DNA of 49,908 bases from an uncultured Bacteroidia bacterium (GTDB lineage Bacteria; Bacteroidota; Bacteroidia; J057; CALAJH01). Below the pieces are notes generated by a model. The model did no database searches and was not told the DNA's origin. It worked only from the letters and a program-made list of their open reading frames with translations. A program made the translations under genes and the position numbers. Location: positions 1-49,908 of the forward strand of contig CALAJH010000031.1 of NCBI GenBank assembly GCA_937922655.1, written 5' to 3'. Shown in pieces: positions 1-48,900 of the stretch; the stretch's first letter is position 1; every line of letters begins with the position of its first letter.

Positions 1-3000
1 CCTCCGTTTACCGTTTTATACAACCACTATTCCGAAGCCAATGTCATCACTTCGGCGACAACCCCGACCTGTTATCCGCCTTATACGTCGGATACATTGG
101 CAACGGGCACGTTTGTCGGTTGCCCCGGCAACTTAACTTGCGCTACGATGGATCCGCCCGATCAAAATACATGCGGCACACGGACGATATGGTATACTTT
201 CGAGGCCGAGCACAGCGGCTCCATATTCTTGCAGTTTGATAACAACGGATCGCCTACGTTCAACAACAATGACGTCTATTTATTTAAGCAAGTCGTGCCG
301 GGCGACTCGACGAGTAGTGGGTTGGTAAGGGTTACGTTAACGGGAACTCACGCCAGTCACCCCAATTTAGGCTATACGTATTGGGGGCGAGGATGCTTGG
401 AGCCGGGGAGATACTATATCATGTTCACGGGATGTACCAATCCTACCGCTACCGTTGTCCCTAGAATTTGGCTTGTGCCCAACTACGGCGATATGTGTGT
501 GTATCCCGGAGAAATTAACATTGACACTACGTCGGGAACTTTTACTGAAACTCTGAACGTAGATTGTCATGGCATTGGTGAATCTCCGGGTGAAGACGGT
601 TCGAACATGCAATGTTTGGGTACGCCCATTGGCATTAAGTCGCAGTGGGTGAAAATCAACGTTAATGTTCAAGATACCGTTGATATCGATATCGAATTGA
701 CGGAATACACGACCACCACGCCCGATCAGATACGTTATCGGGTGGCGATGGGGGATTGTAACGCTATGACCTTCGACAACTGTGTAACCGAAGGCGCGTT
801 TATTATTCTTAACCTTAAATGTCGATTGCCTGGAACATATTGGATACATTCTGTATTACCGCAATTCGCTTCGGGAACAATTCAATATAAAGTGACCATA
901 AGTCCTTCGGTGGATACGGCATGCAACCCTCTCAATCCCGAGCGTCCGCAGGCAAACTTTAACTTTGTCGCCGCATGTGTAGACGAACCGGTGATTTTCA
1001 CGAATTATTCCACTACGGGTTCCGATATGACTTATCATTGGGATTTTGGCAACAACTCAACATCTACCGACCCAAATCCTATTTACATGTACCCCTCGCC
1101 CGGAACATATCTGGTTAGGTTGTCGGCCTGTCGTGATTTAGGCGATACAACTTTATGCGACACCTTCTACCGAACGTTAAGCGTTTTTACTCGTCCTACC
1201 CCTTTATTCAACGTCCCTGATACCGTCATAGCGGGTGAACCAATAACACTTGTCAATCTTTCCACCAATACCATTGCCTCATCCAACTATCAATGGAATT
1301 TCTGTGCCGCTCCGGGCGTATGTGGTTCGAGTATGCTCAATAGTTTTGCTCAGAATCCCCCGCCCGTAACTTACAATACGCCGGGAACCAAGACAATATG
1401 CCTGACGGTATACAATGGAATTTGTATCGAAACGTATTGCGATACTTTCAAAGTATTTCCGGCGTTTATTTATGGTGGTGGCCCATACGACGGTTTTTCC
1501 ATAAGTGGAGTTTATCCCGACTGTTCGCCGGACATCTTTACCGGTGGCCCTTACGATGGGGTCGATTTGAAGAAACAAGTTTCGACGTGTACCGAGAACA
1601 TTTGGGTGGGTGGTCCGTATGACGGCTTTGCCGATGGCTTCGCGCCTGCGCTTTGCCTGCCTGATATTTTCACGGGCGGTCCGTATGACGGCACGGATAC
1701 GAAAAAGCAAGTTTCGACGTGTATCGAGAACATTTGGTTAGGAGGGCCATACGACGGTTTTGCTTCAAGCGGCGTTTTCCCCGATTGCTTCCCCGATATC
1801 TTTACCGGCGGTCCATACGACGGCACGGATACTGTGGTGGTTCGTAATCAATGCATAGTAACGACGATGTGGTCGGGGGGGCCTTACGACGGCCACGGCG
1901 ATGCTGCGGTTTATAATTGTCCCTTGCCCCCCAACATCTTTGTCGGCGGTCCATACGATGGTTTTGCGGAATCGGGAGTGTTCCCGAACTGTTTGCCCGA
2001 CTTTTTCACCGGCGGTCCCTACGACGGTACGGACTACGACAAGCAAATCACGGTTTGCACCGAGAACATATGGGTCGGCGGTCCGTACGACGGTTTTGCG
2101 GAGCTTGGAGTTTATCCGAACTGTTTGCCCGACTTTTTTACCGGCGGTCCCTATGACGGCACACAGGCAAGGACGCAATTGGGCACGTGTTATGAAAATA
2201 TCTGGGTTGGCGGTCCATACGATGGATTTTCCGAAGCGGTGCGCGATTACACCACCTTGGCATCCGGTAGCGCAGTTCCCGTTTGCCAAGGCGACGTTTG
2301 TCCGCTGACGGCCAATACGGTTGTCGAATGGTACGATGCTTCGACGGGAGGTACGCTTTTGCATACCGGTATCACCTATGTAACCCCGCCGCTTTACGAG
2401 ACGCGGGTCTATTGGTTCAAAGCCGTGTGCGCTCCCGGCAGCACTCGTTACCCCGTAGTGGCGCAAGTGTTGGGTAGCCTAAATCCTACATTTACCTACA
2501 TTCCCGGATGTTACCCCAACATTCCCGCTACTTTTGTTAATACGACGATAATTACCAACCGCAACACCCCGAGCTTGGGCGTGGAAATCACCAACCTTGG
2601 AACGACGGGATTGCCACCCGGGATTAGTCAGGTCTCCTTCCAATCCGGTAGGTCGGGAACACCGAACTTCGCCAACCTCATCGACGGCGTAAACAATGCG
2701 GCTTGGTACGGCAACGGCGCTACGGCCGGAACCCAATGGGTGCAATGGCGTTATTTACAGCCTAAGTCCGTTTATCGTATAACGTACACGAACAATAGTG
2801 TGAATCCCGGTCGTTCACCCAAATTGTTGCGTTTATATTATACGACGGGCGGACCGTGGGTGTTGGCAAAAGCGATCATTCCGCCTTATCCGTCGGGTGG
2901 TAATTTCGATAGCGGGTTAATCTTCGAAACGGACGGCATATTCGCCACGCGTTGGATGCTTTTGGTGGACGTGGAAGCTCAAGGGCCTGAATGGACGGAG

Positions 3001-3798
3001 TTCCAAGTTCATGCGGGTTATCCGACCATCGGCGCCGTCGGCGGACGTACCGCGTTTTGGGATTTCGACGACATGGGCGCCACATCGACGGCCAACAATC
3101 CTTCGCATCTGTTTTCCGAAATCACCACGCCCCACCATTTGGCTACCCGTGGTCAATACAACGTTACGCTCACCATGTCCGGGCCGAGTTTGTGTCCCAA
3201 AACCGGTCAGGAATGGGTGCCGAACATGCCCTGCGATGTTCCTTTATCGATACGATCCAATCGTTTGACTGCGGAACTTTTGCCCGACGGTGTGAGCGCT
3301 TTGTTGGATTGGCAAATCGACGGTGTGTTTGCCTTCGCGTCGTTTGAAAAACTCATGCCCGACCAATCTTGGGCCACCCTTAATGTGTTTGGTCATGAGT
3401 CCTTTACAAGGTTTAACTATACCGACAGTATACTTTATACCGATAGGCCCAACATATATCGTGTAAGGTATGTGGATTTCGACGGCTCCGTTGGTTACAG
3501 TAATTTGGCCGAAGTCCTTGCGGTGGTAGCCACTTACGACGAGTGCAAGGTATATCCGAACCCCGTCAAGTCGGGCGCCGTGTTGAACTTCGATCTTTAC
3601 GCCTCTATTCCGTCGCCCGTAGTTATTCGTATATTCGACATACACGGTCGGCCCATCGCCGAAAAATCAGGCATGGAAGCGACAATCGGTAAGAATACCT
3701 ACGAATGGGAGGTAACGGGATTGTCCAAAGGGATGTACATGGCGCATTTGGAAATGCGTCGCCGACGTTACGTCGTCAAGTTCGTGGTCAATGAATAG
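1..3798 (+). CDS. Giant T9SS-exported surface protein, 5'-truncated, with PKD domains and a GGPYDG repeat array
   Basis: The reading frame is open from base 1, so the start lies upstream and only the C-terminal ~1265 residues are visible. Order seen: Cys-rich N-terminal segments; a PKD domain (WDFGN at ~1040) and a second PKD-like stretch (~1200-1455); twelve GGPYDG motifs (1477-2226); an Ig-like segment (~2230-2470); a discoidin-like segment (~2560-3030, with the shape 'NLIDG...W...QWVQWRY'); another PKD-like motif (FWDFDD, ~3055); and a C-terminal T9SS type A sorting domain (YPNPVKSG, then GLSKGMYMAHLE) ending NE-stop. The family knowledge is that such tails direct export through the type IX system and attachment to, or release from, the outer surface. 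Function is inferred as adhesin or extracellular matrix component; no catalytic domain was recognised. It is closed by a strong hairpin at 3808-3850. Confidence 0.9.
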   Translation, partial: PPFTVLYNHYSEANVITSATTPTCYPPYTSDTLATGTFVGCPGNLTCATMDPPDQNTCGTRTIWYTFEAEHSGSIFLQFDNNGSPTFNNNDVYLFKQVVPGDSTSSGLVRVTLTGTHASHPNLGYTYWGRGCLEPGRYYIMFTGCTNPTATVVPRIWLVPNYGDMCVYPGEINIDTTSGTFTETLNVDCHGIGESPGEDGSNMQCLGTPIGIKSQWVKINVNVQDTVDIDIELTEYTTTTPDQIRYRVAMGDCNAMTFDNCVTEGAFIILNLKCRLPGTYWIHSVLPQFASGTIQYKVTISPSVDTACNPLNPERPQANFNFVAACVDEPVIFTNYSTTGSDMTYHWDFGNNSTSTDPNPIYMYPSPGTYLVRLSACRDLGDTTLCDTFYRTLSVFTRPTPLFNVPDTVIAGEPITLVNLSTNTIASSNYQWNFCAAPGVCGSSMLNSFAQNPPPVTYNTPGTKTICLTVYNGICIETYCDTFKVFPAFIYGGGPYDGFSISGVYPDCSPDIFTGGPYDGVDLKKQVSTCTENIWVGGPYDGFADGFAPALCLPDIFTGGPYDGTDTKKQVSTCIENIWLGGPYDGFASSGVFPDCFPDIFTGGPYDGTDTVVVRNQCIVTTMWSGGPYDGHGDAAVYNCPLPPNIFVGGPYDGFAESGVFPNCLPDFFTGGPYDGTDYDKQITVCTENIWVGGPYDGFAELGVYPNCLPDFFTGGPYDGTQARTQLGTCYENIWVGGPYDGFSEAVRDYTTLASGSAVPVCQGDVCPLTANTVVEWYDASTGGTLLHTGITYVTPPLYETRVYWFKAVCAPGSTRYPVVAQVLGSLNPTFTYIPGCYPNIPATFVNTTIITNRNTPSLGVEITNLGTTGLPPGISQVSFQSGRSGTPNFANLIDGVNNAAWYGNGATAGTQWVQWRYLQPKSVYRITYTNNSVNPGRSPKLLRLYYTTGGPWVLAKAIIPPYPSGGNFDSGLIFETDGIFATRWMLLVDVEAQGPEWTEFQVHAGYPTIGAVGGRTAFWDFDDMGATSTANNPSHLFSEITTPHHLATRGQYNVTLTMSGPSLCPKTGQEWVPNMPCDVPLSIRSNRLTAELLPDGVSALLDWQIDGVFAFASFEKLMPDQSWATLNVFGHESFTRFNYTDSILYTDRPNIYRVRYVDFDGSVGYSNLAEVLAVVATYDECKVYPNPVKSGAVLNFDLYASIPSPVVIRIFDIHGRPIAEKSGMEATIGKNTYEWEVTGLSKGMYMAHLEMRRRRYVVKFVVNE
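1477..2226 (+). repeat. Twelve GGPYDG motifs at a 66-bp period
   Basis: The GGPYDG codons start at 1477, 1543, 1609, 1675, 1741, 1807, 1876, 1945, 2011, 2077, 2143 and 2209. Spacing is 66 bp (22 codons) except for two 69-bp steps around the seventh copy. The sequences between motifs largely alternate between a form ending IFTGGPYDGTD and a form ending IWVGGPYDGFA, giving a 44-residue super-unit; each inter-motif stretch has a Cys. The synonymous codons differ between copies, so the array is old enough to have drifted while the protein motif was kept. It resembles in style the Gly-rich GGxGxG-type repeats of some T9SS proteins, but I do not recognise this exact motif. Confidence 0.95.
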
Positions 3799-3807
3799 CC
3801 TTCCTTC

Positions 3808-3850
3808 ACTTCAATGGGAACGCCTATTATATAGGCGTTCCCATTGAAGT
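3808..3850 (+). terminator. 20-bp perfect inverted repeat, transcription terminator
   Basis: Left arm 3808-3827 and right arm 3831-3850 are perfect reverse complements separated by the 3-nt loop TAT. It begins 10 bp after the stop codon of the giant surface protein. The right arm is followed by ATTTTG, a poor T-tract. It probably ends that transcript and isolates the WG-repeat gene at 3922. Confidence 0.85.
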
Positions 3851-3921
3851 ATTTTGTTGATTTAGTTTTCCCACGGCTTGTGGGATGCGGTTTTGGAATT
3901 TTATATCGAAATTTGCATTCG

Positions 3922-5148
3922 ATGAGCGCAGACTACGATTGGCGAGGCCCGTATATCAATGGCTACGCCGTGGTGCAGGTAGGCAGATCATACGGTATGG
4001 TGGATGAAGCCGACCGTTGGATCTTGCCGGCCGAATACCAAGAGGTAAAACCCATGAAAGACGGGCGGGCGCGTGTAAGAAAAGGCCTTAAATACGGTAT
4101 GGCGGACGCGGCGGGAAACATCGTCGTTCCGATTGTTTACGAAGGAATGGAAGACCTAAGCGAAGGAATCGCCGTTGCTCGTAAACAATGGAAGTACGGC
4201 TTTGTGGATGAAAACGGACGCGAAATTTGCGAGTTTATCTACGACCGTGCCATGTCTTTTAGCGAAGGGCGGGCCGCGGTAAAGTTGGGAAAATTTTGGG
4301 GATGCATCGACCGCAACGGCAATTTGGTCATTCCTACGATATACGACTCCGTAGATGCTTTTCGTAACGGAAGGGCTTTTGTTTCTAGAAAGGGAATACA
4401 GGAATACATCGACCTCGACGGTCGCCGAATAAGCGAATCTTTCAACGAACCCGGCTTTACTTCCCGATATTTTTATGGAAGAAAGTTGGTAAAACAAGGC
4501 AATTTATACGGCTTTATAGACGAAAATCTCCGGCCGGTCATTCCGCCAAAGTTTTCCAAGGCCCTTGACTTTTGCGACGGCGTTGCGGCTGTAAAATATG
4601 AAGGTAAATTCGGTTATATCGATGTAGAAGGAAATTTCGTTATCGAACCCCGTTTTTACAACGCACTCAACTTCTACGAGGGGTATGCCCCCGCCGCTAT
4701 TGAGGAATTGGGGTGGGGCTTGATTGACAAAAACGGAAACGTTGTTATTGAATTTCGGTACGATAATATGCTAAGGTATTCGGAGGAATGTGTGGGCGCC
4801 GAATATCTGGGTAAATGGGGATTTCTTCATGTCGACGGTACGGTTTTGATTGATTTCCAATACGATTTTGCCGAACCTTTTACCGGAGGAATAGCCAAGG
4901 TTAAGCAGGGTCGGGAATTGTTTTGTATCAACAAAAAAGGAGAGGCGGTGATTAGGTTTAACCTTAAACGCGACGACGATGAATCCGCTTTCCGTTGGGA
5001 TTTATCCGATTATTCCGCTCATCGTCTTTACGACGACGACGGCAACATCATCGACCACGATACCGAGTGGGACAAAGCCATTGCCGCCGCGGGCAAGCCT
5101 AAACGCTGGAAACCTAAAAGAAAAATAATTCACAAAGATTTTGATTGA
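3922..5148 (+). CDS. WG-repeat (KWG) protein
   Basis: A 408-residue protein made almost entirely of WG repeats: about nine units of ~45 residues with the pattern 'G.(Y/W)G(F/L/M).D..G...I...Y......F..G.A.V', for example KYGMADAAGNIVVP, KYGFVDENG, FWGCIDRNGN, WGLIDKNGN and KWGFLHVDGT. WG repeats form a repeat fold of unknown biochemical role. I start it at ATG 3922 (MSADYDW); in-frame extension would run upstream through a TTG into the terminator hairpin. No signal peptide or membrane segment is evident. The C-terminus is charged and Lys-rich. Two bases separate it from the next gene, so the two are probably co-transcribed. A second WG-repeat protein sits at 26589. Confidence 0.85.
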   Translation: MSADYDWRGPYINGYAVVQVGRSYGMVDEADRWILPAEYQEVKPMKDGRARVRKGLKYGMADAAGNIVVPIVYEGMEDLSEGIAVARKQWKYGFVDENGREICEFIYDRAMSFSEGRAAVKLGKFWGCIDRNGNLVIPTIYDSVDAFRNGRAFVSRKGIQEYIDLDGRRISESFNEPGFTSRYFYGRKLVKQGNLYGFIDENLRPVIPPKFSKALDFCDGVAAVKYEGKFGYIDVEGNFVIEPRFYNALNFYEGYAPAAIEELGWGLIDKNGNVVIEFRYDNMLRYSEECVGAEYLGKWGFLHVDGTVLIDFQYDFAEPFTGGIAKVKQGRELFCINKKGEAVIRFNLKRDDDESAFRWDLSDYSAHRLYDDDGNIIDHDTEWDKAIAAAGKPKRWKPKRKIIHKDFD

Positions 5149-6787: not shown

Positions 6788-8605
6788 TTAGCCTTTGTAT
6801 TTCAGACCGACGATAACGACGTCGTCGGTTTGTTTTCTTATTTCTCCCTTCCAATCGCCGAGATGTTGAAGCAGGGCGTTTTTTTGGGCGTTCATATCAA
6901 GGCCGGCGCTCGCCGAAAGAATATCCTTAAATCGTTTTCTGCCCATGGTTTTAGCGACTTTGTCTTCGCCGCCCAATTGGCTGAAGAAACCGTCGGAAAA
7001 CAAATAAAGACAGTCGCCCGGTTGTAGATTGATTTGTTTGGTGGTAAATTCTCCTTCGCCGTAAAGAGTTCCGCCGACGGGTCTTCTATCTCCCGCTATT
7101 TCGACGAGTTCTCCATTGTGTATGTGAATCGCTTGGCGCATGGCCGAGGCCAAGGATACGTTGCCTTTGCCCGGTTGAAGGCAGCAAACGGTTGCTTCCA
7201 AGGAATCTTGAATGTCGTCGGCTTGACCCGTTTGATTCAGGCCTCGACGCACTTCCTCGTCCAGTATTTCCAATATCGAACTCGGTTCGATAATTCCCCG
7301 GTCTTCGACGATTTTAGTTAATGCGCCAATGCCGACGATGGACATAAACGCGCCCGGGACGCCGTGGCCCGTACCGTCTCCCACGGCAACAATGGTTTTA
7401 TTTTTCCAATTGCCGACCCAATAAAAATCGCCGCCCACCCGGTCTTTGGGCATAAAAATAACAAAACATTCGTAACCTTCGGGCAAGCGTTGCGCAAACG
7501 TTTCGGGGGTGGGAAGCAGGGCGTATTGGATGCGTTCGGCGTAAACAATCGAGTCTTTGATTTCGTTTTGGGTTTCATCCATCGCCTCTTCGAGAAGTTC
7601 TTTGGCGGCGGCAAGTTCGGCGTTGAGCTTAATTTGGCTTTTTATACTTTCGGCAAGGTTTTCTTCGAGTTCGATTTGCTCGGTGACGTCCGTGCGAACG
7701 GATATATATTTCGCGGGTTTGCCGTCCGAGCCCAGTATCGGAGTAACCGTCGCACGAACCCAATAATACCCCCCGTCTTTTTTCTTGTTTTTGACTAGTC
7801 CCTGCCAAAATTTTCCCGCGCTTATCGTTTCCCACAACTCGACGAATATTTCGTCGGGTTGGTGTCCCGATTTTAGGATACGGTGGTTTTTACCCAACAA
7901 TTCATCGGCCGAATAACCCGAAATTTCACAAAATTTGTCGTTGACAAAGGTAATGTTACCCAAAAGGTCGGTTTCGGAAACAATGTTGGCGTTGTTTACC
8001 GCGTCCATGCGGCATTGCAGTTCGATTTGAAGGGCGCGAATATGACGGTTGGTTTCGTGAAGTTCGTCGTTGATGGTGCGAAGTTCTTCCTCGGTGGCTT
8101 TAAGTTCTTCGATGTGCAGTTGAAGCTCTTCTTTGAGCTCGCGTTCGTGCGTAATGTCAAAGCGAACCCCTACATATTTTATGGGTTTGCCGTCGACGCC
8201 GAGAACGGGGGTTATCGTAGCCGCCACCCAATAGTACGTGCCGTCTTTGGCGCGGTTGCAAATTTCCCCTTTCCAAAATTTGCCCGCCGATATTGTCTCC
8301 CACAATTCGACGAATATTTCGTCCGCTTGTTTACCCGACTTTAATATTCGGTGGTTGCGGCCGATAAGTTCCGCACGGCTGTATTTGGAAATGGCGCAAA
8401 AAGTATCGTTTGCAAAAATGATGTTGCCCGCAAGGTCGGTTTCCGAAACCAAGGCGGCGTTGTGAAGCGCCGCCAGCTGCCCGATGAGTTCGTATTCGGT
8501 GGATAGGTCTTGGGCTTCTTCGGTTTTGACTTTGGAAATCTCTTTGTTCGACGTGATTTTGTCTTCCGCGCCGAACCAGCTTTTGAATGTGTTTAACGAT
8601 AGCAT
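6788..8605 (-). CDS. PAS-PAS-SpoIIE (PP2C-type) serine phosphatase
   Basis: A 605-residue soluble regulator. Domain order: PAS/PAC 1 (~residues 40-165), a helical linker (~160-200), PAS/PAC 2 (~205-325), a coiled coil (~325-360), and a SpoIIE/RsbU-type PP2C phosphatase (~360-605). Both PAS units share the shape 'NxxxVSETDLxGNIxFxND...NHRILKSG...ITPVLG'. Phosphatase signatures are present: ERIQYALLP, KDRVGGDFYWV with the metal-binding Asp, GDGTGHGVPGAFMS, SDGFFSQLGG and the C-terminal QTDDVVIVGLKY. Such proteins usually dephosphorylate anti-sigma-factor antagonists or similar targets; no partner of that kind is in the window. The PAS units closely resemble those of the giant PAS protein at 29732-34960. 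No membrane segment is seen. Confidence 0.95.
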   Translation of the reverse strand: MLSLNTFKSWFGAEDKITSNKEISKVKTEEAQDLSTEYELIGQLAALHNAALVSETDLAGNIIFANDTFCAISKYSRAELIGRNHRILKSGKQADEIFVELWETISAGKFWKGEICNRAKDGTYYWVAATITPVLGVDGKPIKYVGVRFDITHERELKEELQLHIEELKATEEELRTINDELHETNRHIRALQIELQCRMDAVNNANIVSETDLLGNITFVNDKFCEISGYSADELLGKNHRILKSGHQPDEIFVELWETISAGKFWQGLVKNKKKDGGYYWVRATVTPILGSDGKPAKYISVRTDVTEQIELEENLAESIKSQIKLNAELAAAKELLEEAMDETQNEIKDSIVYAERIQYALLPTPETFAQRLPEGYECFVIFMPKDRVGGDFYWVGNWKNKTIVAVGDGTGHGVPGAFMSIVGIGALTKIVEDRGIIEPSSILEILDEEVRRGLNQTGQADDIQDSLEATVCCLQPGKGNVSLASAMRQAIHIHNGELVEIAGDRRPVGGTLYGEGEFTTKQINLQPGDCLYLFSDGFFSQLGGEDKVAKTMGRKRFKDILSASAGLDMNAQKNALLQHLGDWKGEIRKQTDDVVIVGLKYKG

Positions 8606-29731: not shown

Positions 29732-32700
29732 ATGAAAATTCTTGGCGTCATAAAGTATGCTTTGCTCGCGCTGACCTTGTCCTTTTCGCTCGGATGGACG
29801 GCGTATGTGTATTTTTGGGTCAAGGACGAATGGGCCAAAGATTTGGAGACAAAGTCCCAATTGCTTGCCAACATCGGCAATATTCAAATTATACATTCGT
29901 CGCTCAATTCCAACGTTACGGCGTTGAAACTCAATCCTATTGACGACAAATACAATGCGTCCGCGCTAATAAAAATCATCAAAACCAAGCTCGACGAACT
30001 GGAAAAGGAATCGAAGTTTTTAGCCGATAACGATGCAAAAAACGGCCAAGTTAAGGCCCTAAACGAGAGTGTTGCCGAATTGATATTCACGGTGAAGAAG
30101 CTGGCGTATGTATATGAAATAGCGGTGTTGAATCAAGTTTCGGAAACCCCCGACGAAAAAATCGTACGCGAACTTCAAGGGGCGAAAGCCGATTTAAATC
30201 TTGTGGGCTATTTGTACAGCGGATACGTTAATTTGGTGGAAACCAAATTAAACAAGTCCCTAAGCGACGCGATAACGGTGATAAAAGACAATAAAGATTC
30301 CGAGAAAAAATCCGGCCGGCTTTTATGGCTTACGTTGGGTTCCCTGTTTAGTTTTTTGGCGGCGGGGGGGATGTTTGTTTACCTAATTTCGAGCAAAAAC
30401 AAATCCATTCGCAAGGATGTTAAGACGATCGAAACTTCATTGGAAAACATACTGAGAGGGAATTTTAACGAAAAAATTGGCGACGTTTCCGATGAGTTTT
30501 TACCGCTTAAATACACCCTTGTTGAAATTAACGAAAGTTTGGGGGGCGTGTTCAAATTCATCTCCAAATTGGGTGACGGACGTTGGGAAGAAATAAAAAT
30601 CGATGAACACGAGGATGCAATTACCTATCAATTGATTCAGGTAAAGAATCGTTTGCTGGAAGCGTCGAACGAGGAAAGAATAAGAAACTGGATGGTTGCC
30701 GGGGTTGCACAGTTTAGTGATTTGATAAAAGTTTCCGACAACGTTCAAAAACTATGCGATTCATTGATTTCATCGCTTTCCAAATATATCGAGGCTAATT
30801 TGGGGGCGTTTTACGTTGGCAATTTTGAAGAATTGAGCAATGACGAACGGCATCCCACTCAATATTCCATGATTAGCAGCTACGCCTACAACAAATCAAA
30901 ATACGGTTTGCGAACCTTTGGTTTAGGCGAGGGATTCGTGGGACAAGCGGCGGCGGAAAAGGAATTTATTTCCATTGTGGATTTGCCCGGAGAGTATATT
31001 ACTTTAACTTCGGGATTGGGTGAAGCCAAACCTAAAAGTTTGCTGGTCGTTCCTTTGGTTTATAACGACGTTGTATACGGCGTTTTGGAGTTTGCTTCGG
31101 TGGTGAATTTTAAAGAACATCAAATTGAGTTTGTCAATAAGTTTAGCGAAACGATAGCGATTGCATTGAACAATTTATATTCGCGTGCAAGGACGCTTAG
31201 TTTGTTAAACGAGGCGCAAAAATTGTCGTTGGAATTGCAAAGAAAACAAGCCGAATTGGTTGAAAAGTCCAATCGTTTGGAGGCAAACAACAAAGAACTT
31301 GTTGCCACCCAGTTGGAACTTACCGGTCAGTTGTCCGCACTCAACAATTCGGCCATTGTTTCCGAAACAGACCCGTTCGGAATAATTACTTTTGTCAATG
31401 ATACGTTCGTTCAAGTTTCCAAGTACGAAAGAAATAGGCTTTTAGGTGAAAATCATCGATTGCTTAAAACCGACGAATTTGGCATTGAATACTTCAAATT
31501 GTTGTGGGATACGATTTTGGCGGGCAAGGTATGGAGGGGCGAATTTAAAAACAAAACAAGGGACGGCGGAATTTACTGGGTGGACGCTACGATTACTCCG
31601 GTGTTGAGTTCCGAGGGAAAAATCGTTAAGTTTATCAGTGTACAGTTTGAAGTAACCATCAGAAAAATTCAAGACGACCAGATACGCATCGCACTCGACG
31701 AATCCATGGCAAAAGAGGAGGAGCTTCGACAAAATGCCGAAGAAATGGAAGCGGCGGCCGAAGAAATGCGTCGAACCCAAATCGAATTAACGGGTTTGAT
31801 TAATGCCATGCACAATTCCGCGATTGTTTCCGAATCCGATTTACAAGGAAGAATCATAAATATCAACGAGCAATTTGTAGCTTTGTCCCGCTATTCTCGT
31901 GAGGAACTTGTGGGTCAAAATCACCGGATTCTTAAGTCCGGGCATCAGCCCGACGACATGTTTGAGGCGCTTTGGGCGTCAATATCTTCGGGTAAGGTTT
32001 GGCGTGGCGAGCTGAAGAACCGAAGCAAAGACAACAATTTTTATTGGGTAACCACGACCATCACGCCGGTTTTGGATTCCACCAAGCGCCCAATAAAATA
32101 CATTTCGGTTGCATTTGATATTACCGCGCAAAAAAATCAAGAGGAGCAGATACGTGCCGCGCTTGAAATCTCTCAAGCGCAGGAGCAGGAGTTAAGACAA
32201 AACGCGGAAGAACTTCAACAAGCCCATGAGGAAATGCGTAAAACTCAAATAGAGTTGCGTGGACAAATTGGGGCTTTGAACAACGCGGGCATTGTTTCCG
32301 AAACCGACCTCAAAGGGAATATTACATTTGTTAATGAAGCGTTTATCGCTATTTCCGGGTATAGCCGGGAAGAATTGATAGGTAAAAATCATCGCTTGCT
32401 TAAATCGGCGGAACACAACGATGATTTTTATCTCAACTTTTGGGAAACGATAAGAAATGGAAGAATATGGAGCGGTATATTTATTAATGTGAACAAGTCC
32501 GGTTCCATATTTTACGTCAAGTCCACCGTTACTCCCGTATTGGGTTTTGACGGGAAACCGGTAAAATATATTGGAGTAAGTTTTGACATTAGTTCGCAAA
32601 TTGAACAAGAAAGAAGAATAGAAGAAGCTCTGATTAAGTCTCTTAAGCAAGAAGAAACGTTGCGAGAACAACAGGTTCTAATGCAAGAAACGCAACTTGA

Positions 32701-34960
32701 ACTTCAAGGAAATGTTCGCGCTATCAACAGCTCTTCCATAGTTTTTGAAACCGAGGTAAACGGTACAATTATATTTGTAAATGACGAACTTACCAAATTG
32801 TCCGCTTTTCAAGACCAAGAATTGGTTGGAAAGACGCCCCGTGTTTTCAATTCGGGTGTGCATCCGCCGGAATTTTTCCAACATTTATGGAACACGATAC
32901 TTTCGGGAAAAGTCTGGAAAGGTGAAATTACCAACAAGTCAAAAAGCGGGGAATTGTACTGGGTGGCAACCACCATATCTCCGGTTAAAGACATACAAGG
33001 CAACCTCAGAAAGTTTATATGCATACAATACGATATAACCGACATCATAAAGAAAGAAATCGAGTTGCGAAGAGCGCTTGAATTGGCTGAATTTCAATCT
33101 CAAGAAATTCGTAAAAAACAAGCCCAACTCGACAGCATATTTTCCAACATAACCGGAGCGATATATCGTCGTAGTAAAGATGGAAATATCATCTTTGTAA
33201 GCGATTACATCAAGTCGATAACGGGTTACGATGTTAATGATTTTACGGTAAACGGTATGGATTTTGTATCGCTTATACATGAAAACGACGTCGAAAGTTA
33301 TCGTGGAACGGTTAATGAAATGATACATAACCGTCTTTCTTTTAGTGTTGTGTACAGGATATATGACAAAGGCGGCAATCTAGTATGGATACGCGAGGAT
33401 GGAAGTGGCGTTTATAATGAAAGCAATGAACTGGAGTACATTGACGGTGTGTTAATCAATATATCCGTTGAAAAGCGTTTGGAGGATTCTTTGCGCGATT
33501 CGTTGGTAGAGCTTGAAGAAAAGCAAAATAAAATGCAAGAGTATGCTCGAATTCTTGAAGTACAAAAAATCGAACTCAACGGTCGAATAGGGGCGTTAAA
33601 CAATTGCGGCATTGTTTCGGAAACAAACATAAATGGAGAAATATTGTTTGTGAACGAAGAGGCGGAGCGTGTGTGGGGATATGCCAATAATGAGGTCGTT
33701 GGTCAAAAGCATAATATCATAAAATCAAATGAACACAGCGCCGATTTCTATCAGTCGTTGTGGAGTACAATTTCGGGGGGGAACGTATGGAAAGGGGAAA
33801 TCAAGAACAAGTCCAAGGACAGTTCCGATTTTTGGGTTCAACTAACCATCACCCCGGTATTGGATAACAACAACCGGCCAATAAAGTATATTGGCGTAGG
33901 CTTTGAAATTACAAGAATCAAGCGGCAGTCCATTAGGATTAAAGAGTTGTTCAACGAGTCCAAAAAACAAGAAGATGAAATGCGAAAACAGGCCAATCAA
34001 CTAAAAGAACTTCATCGAGAGATGTTGCTTACACAAACCGAGTTGAAAGGTCAAATTAGTGCACTTAACAATGCGGCTCTCGTTTCGGAAACGGATACGG
34101 ACGGTAAAATACTGTCTTTGAATGACGAGGCCGTTTATGTTTGGGGTTATTCCCGCGAAGAGGTCGTCGGTAAGAAACACAACATTATTAAGTCCGGTTT
34201 GCATCCCGACGAATTTTATGCCAAAATGTGGGAACGTATCTCGCAAGGTGAAGTATGGAAAGGTCAAATTCAAAACAAAGCAAAGGATGGTTCTATATTT
34301 TGGTTGGAACTTTCGATAACGCCGGTATTGGACGAGCGGCAAACCCCGATGAAGTACATAGGCGTAGGGTTTGAAATTACCAAGCAAAAAGTTCAATCTC
34401 AAAGGATTCGCGAGGCATTGTTGGCTTCGGAAAGACAAGAATCTGAATTAAGAGAGCAAATCGCTAATTTACAGGCTACTTTAAATCAATTTACAGGTAC
34501 CCAATCTTCAACAAAACATTACAATGAAATGCGACAAGTTTCAGGTGCAAGTTTAGTAGTAAACCGAAGTTATGAGACCGACGCCATCCGGCAAATTAAA
34601 GAATACATGAGTTCAATAGTTTCAAACGTCATGATATTCGAATTTAATTTGGAAGGCCGGATTTGTGACCTTAATAATACTTTTGTCAATAAAATGTCGG
34701 TTGAGAAAAGCAGTGTTTTGGATAAACCTTTTACCGCATTGTTTTCTCCCGACACTCCTCATGGCAAAGTTTCACAAATTGTCAAAGAACTTAAAGATTC
34801 CCAAGTGTGGACGGGAAAAGTCGAACTATTTAGTAAAAAGTACGGCGCTTTTGGTTGCACTCTGAAGATGTTTCCTTGCGCCGATGAATCGGGAACTTTC
34901 CAAAAGTTTATTTGCTTGGTTATAGAAGATAGAGAAGAAGTATTATACGCAACAACATGA
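29732..34960 (+). CDS. Giant membrane sensor with GAF and eight PAS domains, no recognised output domain
   Basis: A 1742-residue protein. Membrane helix ~6-28, an extracytoplasmic helical region (~30-195), second helix ~198-221 (LLWLTLGSLFSFLAAGGMFVY), a HAMP-like stretch (~225-300), a GAF domain (~330-490), a coiled coil, then PAS units starting near residues 530, 686, 841, 991, 1136, 1283, 1439 and 1627. Six share the shape 'LxGxIxALNNxxIVSETDxxGxIxFVN...NHRxLKS...W...SGKVWxGExKNKxKDG...WVxxTITPVLD', each followed by a short coiled coil. The fifth is a different, PAS_3-like unit and the eighth is divergent. No histidine kinase, cyclase, GGDEF, phosphatase or HTH follows; the protein ends eight residues after the last PAS. 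Stop overlaps the next ATG. Confidence 0.92.
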   Translation: MKILGVIKYALLALTLSFSLGWTAYVYFWVKDEWAKDLETKSQLLANIGNIQIIHSSLNSNVTALKLNPIDDKYNASALIKIIKTKLDELEKESKFLADNDAKNGQVKALNESVAELIFTVKKLAYVYEIAVLNQVSETPDEKIVRELQGAKADLNLVGYLYSGYVNLVETKLNKSLSDAITVIKDNKDSEKKSGRLLWLTLGSLFSFLAAGGMFVYLISSKNKSIRKDVKTIETSLENILRGNFNEKIGDVSDEFLPLKYTLVEINESLGGVFKFISKLGDGRWEEIKIDEHEDAITYQLIQVKNRLLEASNEERIRNWMVAGVAQFSDLIKVSDNVQKLCDSLISSLSKYIEANLGAFYVGNFEELSNDERHPTQYSMISSYAYNKSKYGLRTFGLGEGFVGQAAAEKEFISIVDLPGEYITLTSGLGEAKPKSLLVVPLVYNDVVYGVLEFASVVNFKEHQIEFVNKFSETIAIALNNLYSRARTLSLLNEAQKLSLELQRKQAELVEKSNRLEANNKELVATQLELTGQLSALNNSAIVSETDPFGIITFVNDTFVQVSKYERNRLLGENHRLLKTDEFGIEYFKLLWDTILAGKVWRGEFKNKTRDGGIYWVDATITPVLSSEGKIVKFISVQFEVTIRKIQDDQIRIALDESMAKEEELRQNAEEMEAAAEEMRRTQIELTGLINAMHNSAIVSESDLQGRIININEQFVALSRYSREELVGQNHRILKSGHQPDDMFEALWASISSGKVWRGELKNRSKDNNFYWVTTTITPVLDSTKRPIKYISVAFDITAQKNQEEQIRAALEISQAQEQELRQNAEELQQAHEEMRKTQIELRGQIGALNNAGIVSETDLKGNITFVNEAFIAISGYSREELIGKNHRLLKSAEHNDDFYLNFWETIRNGRIWSGIFINVNKSGSIFYVKSTVTPVLGFDGKPVKYIGVSFDISSQIEQERRIEEALIKSLKQEETLREQQVLMQETQLELQGNVRAINSSSIVFETEVNGTIIFVNDELTKLSAFQDQELVGKTPRVFNSGVHPPEFFQHLWNTILSGKVWKGEITNKSKSGELYWVATTISPVKDIQGNLRKFICIQYDITDIIKKEIELRRALELAEFQSQEIRKKQAQLDSIFSNITGAIYRRSKDGNIIFVSDYIKSITGYDVNDFTVNGMDFVSLIHENDVESYRGTVNEMIHNRLSFSVVYRIYDKGGNLVWIREDGSGVYNESNELEYIDGVLINISVEKRLEDSLRDSLVELEEKQNKMQEYARILEVQKIELNGRIGALNNCGIVSETNINGEILFVNEEAERVWGYANNEVVGQKHNIIKSNEHSADFYQSLWSTISGGNVWKGEIKNKSKDSSDFWVQLTITPVLDNNNRPIKYIGVGFEITRIKRQSIRIKELFNESKKQEDEMRKQANQLKELHREMLLTQTELKGQISALNNAALVSETDTDGKILSLNDEAVYVWGYSREEVVGKKHNIIKSGLHPDEFYAKMWERISQGEVWKGQIQNKAKDGSIFWLELSITPVLDERQTPMKYIGVGFEITKQKVQSQRIREALLASERQESELREQIANLQATLNQFTGTQSSTKHYNEMRQVSGASLVVNRSYETDAIRQIKEYMSSIVSNVMIFEFNLEGRICDLNNTFVNKMSVEKSSVLDKPFTALFSPDTPHGKVSQIVKELKDSQVWTGKVELFSKKYGAFGCTLKMFPCADESGTFQKFICLVIEDREEVLYATT

Positions 34961-42953: not shown

Positions 42954-45900
42954 ATGGGTTACAAATACAGTATCGTTTTTGCGATGACGGCGGTTTTGTT
43001 CGCCGGCCGTGTTTTAGCAAACGGACACCATTCCGGACACGACCACCACAATCCCAACGCCGGACTTTTCATCGAAAACAAAGGACAATGGGATTACCAC
43101 ATCGCTTATCGTGCCGATTTGCCTTATGGGCGGGTCTGGCTTGAACGCGACCGATTTACCTACGTGTTTCACAACCCGGAGCAGATAGCGGCTTTGCATC
43201 CCCGTCTCAGCATTGACCAACCCCTTACACTGAATTTTCATGCCGTGGCGATGCGTTTCGTCGGCTCCAATCCTACGCCCAATATTTCCCGGTTTCTCGA
43301 GGCGCCCGGATATTCCAATTTCATCATCGGAAACGACCGCTCCAAATGGGCAAGCCGCGTCAAGTCTTTTGCCGAAGTGCTTTACGAAAACCTCTACGAC
43401 GGAGTCGGTTTGTACGTTTATCACGGCGAGCAAGGTTTAAAGTACGATTATCGCATCGAACCCGGCGCCGACCCCCGGCAAATTCGGTTTTGGTACGACG
43501 GCGCCGACGGAGCTTTTCTCCTCGACGGGCGAATCGCTTTGCAAACCTCCGTCGGTCAATTGATGGAATACATTCCCGCCGCGTGGCAGGAAATCGGCGG
43601 CGCCCGTATACCCGTAAACATCCGTTATGTTCACGAAGACGGATATTTCGGCTTTGAGTTTCCCAATGGTTACGACCCCGCATACCCCCTTGTTATCGAC
43701 CCCACCCTTGTTTTTTCCACCTATTCCGGTTCGATCGCCGACAACTGGGGGTTCACCGCCACCTACGATTTGGATGGAAACGGTTATTCCGGAGGCATCG
43801 CCAACGGCGCGGGATATCCGGCTTCTACCGGAGCTTTCGACGTGACTTACAATCCCGGAAGCGGAACCGCAATCGGTAGTGTTCTTGCCGGTTATGGCTC
43901 CGACGTGGCGATTATCAAGTACAATCCCACGGGGACGGCAAGAATCTGGGCTACTTACATTGGTGGAAACAACAACGAAACTCCCCATAGCATCGTTACC
44001 AATACTTCGAGAGAGTTGTATATTTTCGGCGCTACCGCGTCTACAAATTTTCCCGTGGGTTTGGCAAGCTATCGGCCCAATAATGCCGGCGGCGTCGATG
44101 CTTTCGTTCTCAGGCTCAGCGCCGACGGCGCCACGCTTATCGGAGGTTCTTACATCGGCGGCGCCGCCGACGACGCCGTCAATACCGGCAATTTACGCAA
44201 CTTTTACGGAGACGAACATCGCGGTGAAATTGCCATCGACAATCAAGGCAACGCCTATGTAGCCACCTGTACGCGTAGTAACAACTTTCCGATTGTCGGC
44301 GGTTTTGACAACACTTTGGGCGGGCAACAGGATGCGGTCGTCTTTAAGTTTAACCCCGACATGACCGAATTGTTGTGGTCGACGTATTTGGGAGGGGGGA
44401 CTTTGGATGCCGGATATTCTTTGCGTTTGGCGAACGACGGTACGATTTACGTTTGCGGCGGCACCAATTCCAACAATTTTCCTACGACGGCGGGCGTTTT
44501 TCAAACCGCGCCCGGCGGCGACAACGATGGATTTGTAGCGCAAATTTCTTCAAACGGCGCCCAGCTCCTTCGTGCCGGTTATCTTGGTTACGCTCAAGCC
44601 GACCAAGCCCTGCTTTTGGATTTCGACAACGACGGATTTGTTTATGTCGCCGGAATTACGGCCAGTCCCGCTTTTCCTTTTACGGCCGCATACGGTCAAC
44701 CCACCGGCGGTCAGTTTGTTGTTAAATTGAACAGCGAACTTTCCGCAATAGAATGGGCTACTCGTTTGGGAACCCAAGTAAACACCCCTTGTCTGGCGTT
44801 TACCGCTTTTTTGGTCGACCAATGCAAAAACATTTATGTTTCCGGATGGGGCGGTGGTTTGGCCAGCGGTTCGGTGGCAGGGTTGCCCGTTTCGCCGGAC
44901 GCGCTTTATCCCACCGCCGCCGGAAACGACGCATTTTATTTGGGCGTCCTTGAAGCCGACGCCCAATCTTTGCTTTATGGAACTTATATCGGCGACCCCA
45001 ATGCCAACGACCACGTCGACGGGGGCACCAGTCGGTTTGACAAACGCGGCATTGTTTATCAGTCGGTTTGCGGTTCTTGCGGCGGTTCCGACAATTTTCC
45101 CACCTCGCCCAACCCCGGCGCGTGGAGCAATACCAACAACTCCTCCAACTGCAACAGTCTTCTTTTCAAAATCGCCCTCGATATCATCGACCCCGTTATA
45201 GCCAATTTTTCTTATACCGTCGAATCCGATTGCGATTCCATTTACGTTACGTTTACCAACCTTTCCGAAAACGCGACGAGCTATTTGTGGGACTTTGGCG
45301 ACAATACCACCTCTACGGCCGAAAATCCCGTTCATGCTTATGCGCTTTCGGGCATTTACAACGTGACCCTGACGGCGTTCAATACGGGAGAATGCGCCGC
45401 CTCCGACCAAATTACGCTTCCGGTATTTGCGCAATTCGGCGGCCCGCTTTACGATTTTGTTACCGCCAACGCCGGTACCTACATCGGCAACGGATGTTTT
45501 CGTTTGACCGAAGCGGTAAACAACCAACGCGGCGTGGTGTGGTACGGCGCCCCCATCAGCCTCAATGAACCTTTCGACTATACTTTTCAGGTTAATTTGG
45601 GTTCCATCGACGGCAACGGCGCCGACGGCATCGCTTTTGTTTTGCAGCGTCAAGGTACGACCAATCAAGGTACTTCCGGCGGGGGCATCGGTTACGGCGG
45701 CATGGCCCCGCCCAATCTCGCCATCGAAATTGACACGTGGAACAACGGCGCCGGCGACATCGCCTGCGACCACGTCGCCGTTCACCTCAACGGTCAAAAC
45801 ACCGTTCCCGTCGCCGGCCCCGTACAGGCTTTACCCAACAACTGCAATATCGAGGACGGTCAATTTCATACCTTCCGCGTCGTTTGGGACCCCGTTACCC

Positions 45901-48900
45901 AGACGTTTACCATATTTATGGACGGCTTCCAAATTTTGACCTACACCAACGACGTGGTCAATAATGTTTTTGGCGGCAATCCCCAAATGTATTGGGGCTT
46001 TACCGCTTCAACGGGCGGTGCGGTAAACGTGCATCAAGTGTGTATGCCCGACGTTCCCCCCGTGGTCTATGCCCCGCCCGTAGCCGTCGAAGCCACGGGC
46101 GTTACTTGCGGCGCTTTTCGTGCCAACTGGCTTCCGGCGCCCGGCGCCCAACGCTATTATATTGACGTTTCCACCGACCCGAACTTCGGTTCGTTCGTCG
46201 GTCCCTACAATCAGTTCGACGTTGGTTTCGAACTTTTTCGCGACGTTTCGGGATTGTCCTCCGGAACGACTTATTATTATCGTGTTTATTCGACCAATCC
46301 ATGCGGATTGGAAGGGCCTTCCAACGTTATTGCCGTTAATTTGCCGACGGCGGAGGTTTCCGCGTCGGGCGACGAAGCGGTTTGCGTCGGCGATCCCATT
46401 CGTTTGTTTGCCCTTGGGGAGGAGGGGGTAACTTATCAATGGACGGGACCCAACGGTTTCTCTTCTTCCGTCAGGAATCCCGTGATTGCTTCGGCAACGG
46501 GCGCCAACGCCGGTACGTACAACGTTGTTGCCGTTGCCGCGGGTTGTACTTCCGAAGTCGCCTCCATTGTTGTCGCCGTGCAACCGCCGCCTTTGTTGGA
46601 CGTTGTCGGCCCGACGTCCATTTGTTTGGGGCAATCGGCGACGCTTACCGCCGTCGGTTCCGAAGGGTTTGTGTATTGGTTGCCCAACAATCTTAATACC
46701 GGCTCGATTACCGTCAGTCCCACTTCCACGACCTCGTACACCGCCGTGGCTTACGAACCCGTTGGAACAAACCTCGTCGTAAACGGAGACTTTGAGGATG
46801 GAAACGTCGGTTTTCAATCCGATTACCTTTACTTTACAAACCCGCCGCTGGGTGAAGGAAGGTATGCGGTAACCAACAACCCACAGAGTATTCACAACGG
46901 TTTTGCCCCATGCTTCGACCATACCTCCGGCGCCGGCAATATGATGGTCGTCAATGGCAATACTTCTCCCAACGCCGTTGTTTGGCAACAAAACGTTACC
47001 GTCGTTCCCGGGCGCAATTATTTGTTTTCGGCATGGTTGCAAAGCGTTAATCCCACCAATCCGGCGCGGTTGAATTTCAGCATCGACGGCCAACAAATTT
47101 CCGACGTCCTTGTTGCGCCCGGCGTTAATTGTCAATGGATTAACTTTTCCGCTTTATGGTTTTCGGGTGACGCCGAGTCGGTTACTATTTCCATTGTCAA
47201 TGAAAACACTATCGCTTCCGGCAACGACTTTGCTTTGGACGATATTTCCTTTATCCCCGTTTGCCAGACGGTGGTGGTACACAACGTTGTAGTCAATCCC
47301 CAACCCGAACTCCTTGCTTATGCCGAACCGTCACAACTTTGCGAAGGCGCCGAGGCGACGCTTTTCGTTGGCGGGGCCCAAGACTTTGTTTGGAACGGCC
47401 CGGGCTTGGAAAACGAACAAGGTTCGGTTGTAAACTTTACTCCGCCGTTGGGGACGAGCGTCTATACCGTCGTAGGTACGTCTTCCGGCGGTTGCACCGA
47501 TGAAACCACCGTCGAAATCACCGTTTATCCCGTTCCCAACTTTGAGCTTACGGCTACGCCCCCCTCCATCTGCTCCGGCGAAACCTCGACGATTGAAGTT
47601 TCTCCTTCCGAGAACGTAAACGTATATTATTCTCCGCCCGGCGTTTTCTTATCCGACGGTATATATTCTTTTAGTGTGTCGCCTACCGCAACAACCGTTT
47701 ATACCGTAACCGTGTTCACGCCCGAGTTGAACTGCTCCTCGGAGCAGACTCTAACCGTCGAGGTACGCCAAACATCGGACGTGGTTATAGACCCTATACC
47801 CAATTTCTGCCCCGACGCCGAACCTTTTACGTTAACCGGGGCGCCGGAGGGGGGGGCGTTTTCCGGTCCCGGCGTTGTGGACAACGTATTTTTCCCGGCT
47901 TCCGTTTCCGCCGGAACATACTTCGTTCGTTATGAAGGTTACGAGAACGACTGTTACTTTGCCGACAGCGTGGCCGTTACCGTTTATCCGGCGCCGACGC
48001 CGAATATCGCCGGTTTGGCCAATTTGTACTGTACCGGGCAGTTGTGCGTGCAATTGAACTTGTCGCCTCCGGGCGGCACGTTGAGCGGTCCGGGGGTAAC
48101 CTCCCAAAATCGTTTTTGTCCGAACGTTGCGGGCGTGGGTTTTCATACCCTTACTTATTCCGGTTTTGATGAAAACGGTTGTTTTTATTCCACCTCGCGC
48201 CAAACCGAGGTTCGCTTAACGCCGTCGACGAATATATTCGATTTTGAACCGGCGTATTGTCGCGACGCCGCACCCGATCCGTGGACGGGAATTCCGGCGG
48301 GCGGTCAGTTTCTTGGCCCCGGCATGGTGGGCAACGTCTTTTACCCCAATCTTGCCAATGTCGGGCCGAATACCATAATTTATCGTGGAACCGTCAACGG
48401 CTGTCAATACCAAACGTCGGTGACGGTAATTGTCTATCCCTTGCCCCAACCGGAAATTCTCGGTTTGACCAACGTTTATTGTACGGGCGATTTGTGCGTA
48501 CAAATTAGTGGCTTGCCGGCAGGAGGAACGATGAGCGGCCCCGGAGTGACGGCCAACGGCACACGTTTTTGTCCTGCGTTGGCGGGCGTTGGCGTGCATA
48601 CGATAACCTACCAAGGTTTCACCCCCGAAGGTTGTTTTTATTCCACGACCCATACCTTGACCGTCAATTTAACCCCCGCGACAAACATCACCGACTATTT
48701 GCCGGCATACTGTTCAACGGACTCTCCCGACCCATGGACGGGAACTCCGCCCGGGGGGCAGTTTCTTGGTCCCGGCATGGTGGGTAACGTTTTTTATCCC
48801 AACCTCGCCAATATCGGCTCGAATACCATTGTTTACCGCGGTATTTTGAACGGGTGCGCTTACCAAACTTCGGTTACCGTTACGGTCAATCAAACGCCCA

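Follow-up and report, generated by a model that had tools for sequence, protein, structure and literature searches.

A GGxxDG repeat array in a giant T9SS cargo protein represents an undescribed Bacteroidia family whose genes lie next to a gene for an FGE-fold protein

The window analysed here (the whole stretch of 49,908 nucleotides from an uncultured Bacteroidia bacterium, genome G000) runs from base 1 of contig C31 and opens with the 3' part of a giant T9SS cargo gene (positions 1-3798, + strand; 1265 aa here, ~2,400 aa in full), whose reading frame is open at its 5' end; since the window starts at a contig end, the gene is cut. Its missing 5' part (1137 aa) is found in the same genome at G000:C75:9357-12767, as a frame that runs off its contig. 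When both were aligned to the complete orthologue L002, the C75 frame matched at 46% over residues 2-1041 and the window frame at 42% from residue 1122 on, with a gap of about 80 residues between the two parts, which puts the full protein at about 2,400 aa; complete orthologues have open frames of a similar length (2,262-2,827 aa). By eye, the 5' part at G000:C75:9357 begins with an N-terminal Sec signal, its hydrophobic run ending ...SPAKVYAQ, and such a signal is seen on full-length orthologues too. Within the window part, all on the + strand, a PKD domain (943-1176; Pfam PF18911/PF00801) lies upstream of a repeat array and an Ig_7 (CHU_C-associated) domain (2269-2469; PF19081) directly after it, followed by an F5/8 type C-like domain (2656-2862), which is below the Pfam cut-off and falls within the conserved C-flank used for the orthologue search, and by a T9SS type A C-terminal sorting domain (3550-3789). 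The latter scored above cut-off with both PF18962 (34.5 bits, cut-off 27) and TIGR04183 (35.3, cut-off 23), bearing out the first-pass annotation of the protein as a T9SS cargo.

Elsewhere in the window, a gene for a WG-repeat-like protein (3844-5148) directly follows the giant gene on the same strand and was not seen at that position in the flanks read for the orthologues. Another giant exported protein, with an SBBP-like beta-propeller part and a PKD-like domain, is encoded at 42954-49907, where it runs off the window end; by eye it has about nine units of ~70 residues with GGxFxGPGV. At 29732-34960 lies the gene for a membrane protein of 1742 aa in which several PAS-like repeats were read by eye, and at 6788-8605 (minus strand) that for another such regulator, several of which are present in the window.

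The array itself (1468-2235, + strand) consists of twelve units of 22-23 residues, each comprising [IFM][FWY]xGGPYDG and a linker, with one Cys per linker. The twelve GGPYDG hexapeptides lie in frame +1 of the window between 1477 and 2226 (starts at 1477, 1543, 1609, 1675, 1741, 1807, 1876, 1945, 2011, 2077, 2143 and 2209), and composition would lead one to expect 0.0003 copies in 1265 aa; the form GG.[YF]DG occurs in none of the other five frames of the window. Spacing is 22 residues in nine steps and 23 in two (units 6 to 7 and 7 to 8), so that the earlier count of twelve hexapeptides at a step of 22, with two of 23, was exact. The single Cys per linker noted earlier was found in each of the 11 linkers, and the first 16 residues after unit 12 contain no Cys. 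Linkers alternate, as had been noticed, between types A (FASSGVFPDCFPDIFT-like) and B (TDTKKQVSTCIENIWL-like), save for a distinct pair at units 6 and 7. Over all 66 hexapeptide pairs we counted 229 synonymous codon differences and no nonsynonymous one, which upholds the earlier view that selection acts on the protein. Moreover, DNA identity among units of the same type is no higher than 53-82%, which marks the array as old rather than freshly made by slippage. An assembly or slippage artefact, also considered, was ruled out by these differences of 18-47% among same-type units.

Units 6 and 7 (1798-1935, + strand), of 23 residues each (IFTGGPYDGTDTVVVRNQCIVTT and MWSGGPYDGHGDAAVYNCPLPPN), form a pivot pair recognisable in orthologues of other families. 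Between species a pivot unit is 39% conserved, compared with about 26% for other units; ordinary units are 51% alike inside one protein, a sign of lineage-internal amplification. Among orthologues with a pivot (L040, L041, L043-L047, L051 and L052 were considered), the numbers of units before and after it followed an n/n+1 pattern with n = 4 to 8 in eight of ten intact arrays (4/5 four times, 6/7 once, 7/8 twice and 8/9 once), the exceptions being L051 (6/3) and the window (6/5). L048 would be a ninth match (8/9), when read across two frameshifts, and a permutation test that ignores relatedness gave p = 0.0005 for the match, or 0.00008 with L048. This rule of arms is a lead only, because it was spotted in the very data to which the permutation test was applied, because the arrays are related, and because there are two exceptions, one of them the window itself. 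An orthologue with no pivot (L039) and a paralogue with only five units (L103) also occur. Equal arms around the pivot could reflect a folded-back rod.

Profile and literature searches placed the array in no described family, as the first-pass annotation had supposed. No Pfam or NCBIfam model covered it in the window protein or the relatives scanned, no paper containing the string GGPYDG was found, the strings GGxxDG and GGxGDG led to papers on unrelated proteins only, and the viral contigs searched held no relative of the array. A PDB sequence search with the array returned a designed beta-trefoil (E 0.0019) and chance matches, which were discarded. A search with the array turned up relatives among the near genomes (15 of 149) and in the class (22 of 395 genomes), and a profile built from three units detected units in 28 of 295 Bacteroidia genomes. 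From 338 units in 41 proteins we derived the consensus [FYW]-x-G-G-x-x-D-G-[FAYH]-[AS], in which D reaches 92% and the G positions were prescribed by the search pattern; one Cys per linker is the rule in 35 of the 41 proteins. The relatives fall into two groups. Giant-protein orthologues share a common C-flank module, found at E < 1e-69 in 13 of 395 class genomes and, in a 395-genome phylum sample, in the window's own genome only; those with an assembled array region have 5 to 18 units. The short proteins are built from a signal peptide, between 1 and ~20 units and a PVELLxF-type region, to which a sorting tail is usually added. The array is thus a member of an undescribed family of short GGxxDG units in Bacteroidia surface proteins. 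Frameshifts inside or after the repeats were seen in the array genes L048 (G315:C4) and L057 (G101:C1), the latter in a single-contig genome, where sequencing error or phase variation could both account for them.

These relatives do not sustain the fixed 22-residue rise that had been proposed as the defining feature of the array. The period is nearly constant inside most proteins and ranges from 19 to 29 across proteins; moreover, units occur singly after a signal peptide (L193 and L196), or are set among other domains at distances of approximately 115-213 residues (L185, L187 and L188). For these reasons the unit is more aptly regarded as a short, self-standing motif, frequently multiplied in tandem, than as a turn of a fixed 22-residue coil. 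Structure prediction, with alignments whose rows came from the window and L002 only, gave a mixed answer on the solenoid that had been envisaged: AlphaFold gave the 12 units an all-beta model, each unit having two short strands, yet at a pLDDT of 55, and a 5-unit model (4 alignment rows) was helical at pLDDT 38. Foldseek found no match in the PDB at E <= 0.001, and VIA-align gave tied matches (Z 8-11) to various beta-solenoids and to unrelated proteins. As the two models are of low confidence and contradict each other, we claim no fold for the array. One may still ask whether it is a mere structural rod, a stalk of the beta-solenoid or beta-roll kind by which adhesive domains are held away from the cell, the neighbouring gene described below being mechanistically unlinked. 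The near-constant period within each protein, the all-beta 12-unit model and the VIA-align scores to beta-solenoids speak for such a rod, but a period that varies between relatives, solitary or widely spaced units and conflicting models speak against it; together with a gene pairing that tracks the units across otherwise different proteins, these make the rod very improbable.

That pairing is with an FGE-fold gene. In the orthologue flanks, the gene directly upstream on the same strand encodes a protein of 480-506 aa, 49-57% identical to the L002 copy; all six upstream partners scanned matched PF03781 (FGE-sulfatase) above cut-off, and partners gave weak PDB sequence matches to FGE. A profile made from six partners (A6) was run over the flanks of all array loci. 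Upstream DNA of more than 300 nt was available at 39 loci, and in 38 of them a script located a same-strand FGE-fold gene upstream of the array gene; the 39th, L145, has one too, with overlapping reading frames, and the pairing is therefore 39 of 39. The usual gap between the two genes is -85 to +110 nt. Larger gaps are due to frameshifts in the giant gene at L048, and probably also at L054, and to a second array gene in between at L146; they occur too at L055, L103, L105 and L152. Two of these loci, L190 and L200, came in from the FGE side; the remaining 37 were found via the repeat sequence or as orthologues of loci so found, without the partner as query, so that for them the pairing is no selection effect. 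The window's genome conforms, with two tandem FGE-fold genes (L165; G000:C75:6047-9270) directly before the 5' part of the giant gene, and hence on another contig than the window. Several giant cargos have two to four partner genes in tandem ahead of them, with up to four in G010:C120.

When the search was turned round to start from the FGE homologues, many A6 homologues that had not been linked to an array turned out to be followed by units, a degenerate array or a giant-type gene; six FGE homologues from the same broad family (L192, L194, L195, L197, L198 and L199) were followed by no array. With 0 to 9 FGE-fold matches per genome, chance adjacency should be rare. Moreover, partner sequence tracks the type of cargo or array and not the genome: identity is 0.79 between the short-array partners of G101 and G220 but 0.49 between the two partners inside G101, and likewise 0.67 between the short-array partners of G002 and G014 but 0.34 within G002, as expected of a co-inherited pair. 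In titles and abstracts we found no paper describing a gene pair of an FGE-fold protein and a T9SS cargo. A diversity-generating retroelement was also considered as an explanation of the FGE-fold genes; the reverse transcriptase family PF00078 is present in only three of seven cassette genomes, off the cassette contigs, and absent in four. In the window's genome this reverse transcriptase (PF00078, in a 568-aa frame) lies at G000:C1:187884-188618, likewise off the cassette contigs. The strongest property of the repeat is its pairing with a repurposed FGE-fold protein, and not its periodicity.

The partners consist of an N-terminal domain followed by a recognisable FGE core. Their N-terminus is of Sec type with, by eye, no lipobox Cys at the predicted cleavage site, and no T9SS tail was detected; so equipped, the partner should stay in the periplasm, where we infer it to reside. 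The catalytic Cys pair of FGE (the copper site, with motif GGS-x-x-C-x4-C) is found in none of 56 partners, and since C-x4-C is absent from all of these homologues, the partner is not a classical formylglycine-generating enzyme. Seven partners scanned against NCBIfam hit none of its models, those of PorK, GldK and GldJ included, and left one trace, far below cut-off, to PvdO. Six arrays are without Cys (L145, L107, L108, L154, L190 and L200); between the partners of L145 and L107, which come from different genera, identity reaches 67%, so that cargo without Cys may have a separate clade of partners. Classical formylglycine formation on the array Cys was considered and rejected, because the partners have no Cys pair and some arrays no Cys.

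What the pairing suggests is that each GGxxDG unit is a docking, or modification, site for the FGE-fold partner. The array belongs to a conserved two-gene cassette, in which the first gene supplies the Sec-exported FGE-fold protein and the second a T9SS cargo with one to about twenty GGxxDG units. In the docking model that we propose, the partner, without catalytic cysteines, would remain in the periplasm and hold the GGxxDG turn in its former FGE substrate groove, one partner per unit. A tandem array would thereby allow multivalent docking of the periplasmic partner on a cargo of great length, either ahead of its passage to the cell surface or in the course of it. Of the mechanisms weighed, docking is the best supported, because PorK, which has the FGE fold without the catalytic cysteines, docks PorN through regions of the FGE groove (PMC12421860). 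By this analogy, use of the former groove to dock the GGxxDG turn has about an even chance of being right; direct contact between partner and unit, like reuse of the old groove, is inferred. The rule of one Cys per unit, which holds in 35 of 41 proteins, is superfluous to the docking model, and adjacency alone fits an enzyme-substrate or a chaperone-client pair too. The six FGE homologues that no array follows also count against docking.

The first of these alternatives makes the partner a periplasmic enzyme that modifies each unit (for example by oxidation at Cys, an aromatic residue or Asp), with the array as its multi-site substrate. Strict partner-cargo gene pairing speaks for such an enzyme, FGE likewise works on newly exported proteins and the partner is Sec-exported with no T9SS tail, and GG and DG are near-invariant (the G being set by the search pattern), with one Cys per unit in most arrays; but the FGE Cys pair occurs in 0 of 56 partners, five or six of 41 arrays have no Cys and still have a partner, and, by eye, no CxPxR-like sulfatase motif recurs in the arrays. 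Modification thus appears unlikely, with room left for other chemistries of the FGE fold; its fuller form, a new system of surface-protein maturation in which a secreted protein of the FGE fold, its chemistry altered, post-translationally modifies all GGxxDG units on the T9SS cargo dedicated to it, we hold to be unlikely too. The second alternative, a chaperone or export factor for unit-bearing cargo with no role at the mature surface protein, agrees with the partner gene lying directly before each cargo, with its signal peptide and lack of a sorting tail, and with the tandem partner genes (2-4) ahead of several giant cargos. Small single-unit cargos, however, have a partner too and would hardly need special help with export, and we consider this explanation quite improbable.

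With the pairing, a glycine-rich repeat that lacked an explanation becomes part of a partner system that can be tested. Were the pairing to reflect binding or modification, it would amount to a widespread Bacteroidia kit, in which short peptides repeated along secreted proteins are recognised by a repurposed FGE fold, and would add to the known PorK/GldK/GldJ hubs; the GGxxDG motif is short enough for use as a tag. If modification were true, one cell-surface protein would carry up to 18 or more modified tandem sites. The pairing also furnishes an annotation rule, in that an FGE-fold gene of the partner subtype predicts a GGxxDG cargo just downstream.

Among known systems, RTX proteins have units of GGxGxDxUx every 9 residues, which form a calcium-binding beta-roll. 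The window array is like them in being made of Gly- and Asp-rich tandem repeats in a secreted protein, but differs in its spacing of 22/23, in its GGPYDG and in its Cys-containing linkers, and a Pfam/NCBIfam scan of the window protein gave no match to RTX models. Sulfatases are the substrates of FGE (SUMF1), with which the partners share the FGE fold (PF03781 above cut-off) and export, FGE itself acting on exported proteins; by contrast, the partner has no catalytic Cys pair, the gene pair includes no sulfatase, and the motif is GGxxDG, not CxPxR. SprB-SprF offers another parallel, as a long T9SS adhesin tied to FGE-fold track proteins in which disulfides matter, SprF being an outer-membrane protein disulfide-bonded to GldK (PMC12635249). 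Here, however, the partner is itself of the FGE fold, and no SprF-like gene was identified in the flanks that were read. PorK, GldK and GldJ, for the last two of which the same FGE fold has been described (PMC12421860), resemble the partners in having an FGE fold without catalytic cysteines, in being exported and in their tie to T9SS; in PorK, a component of the T9SS ring, the former substrate groove takes up loops of its partner (PMC12421860). They are nonetheless lipoproteins of the core machine or track (see also PMC12635249), whereas the partners have, by eye, no lipobox, carry an extra N-terminal domain and are dedicated to one cargo each.
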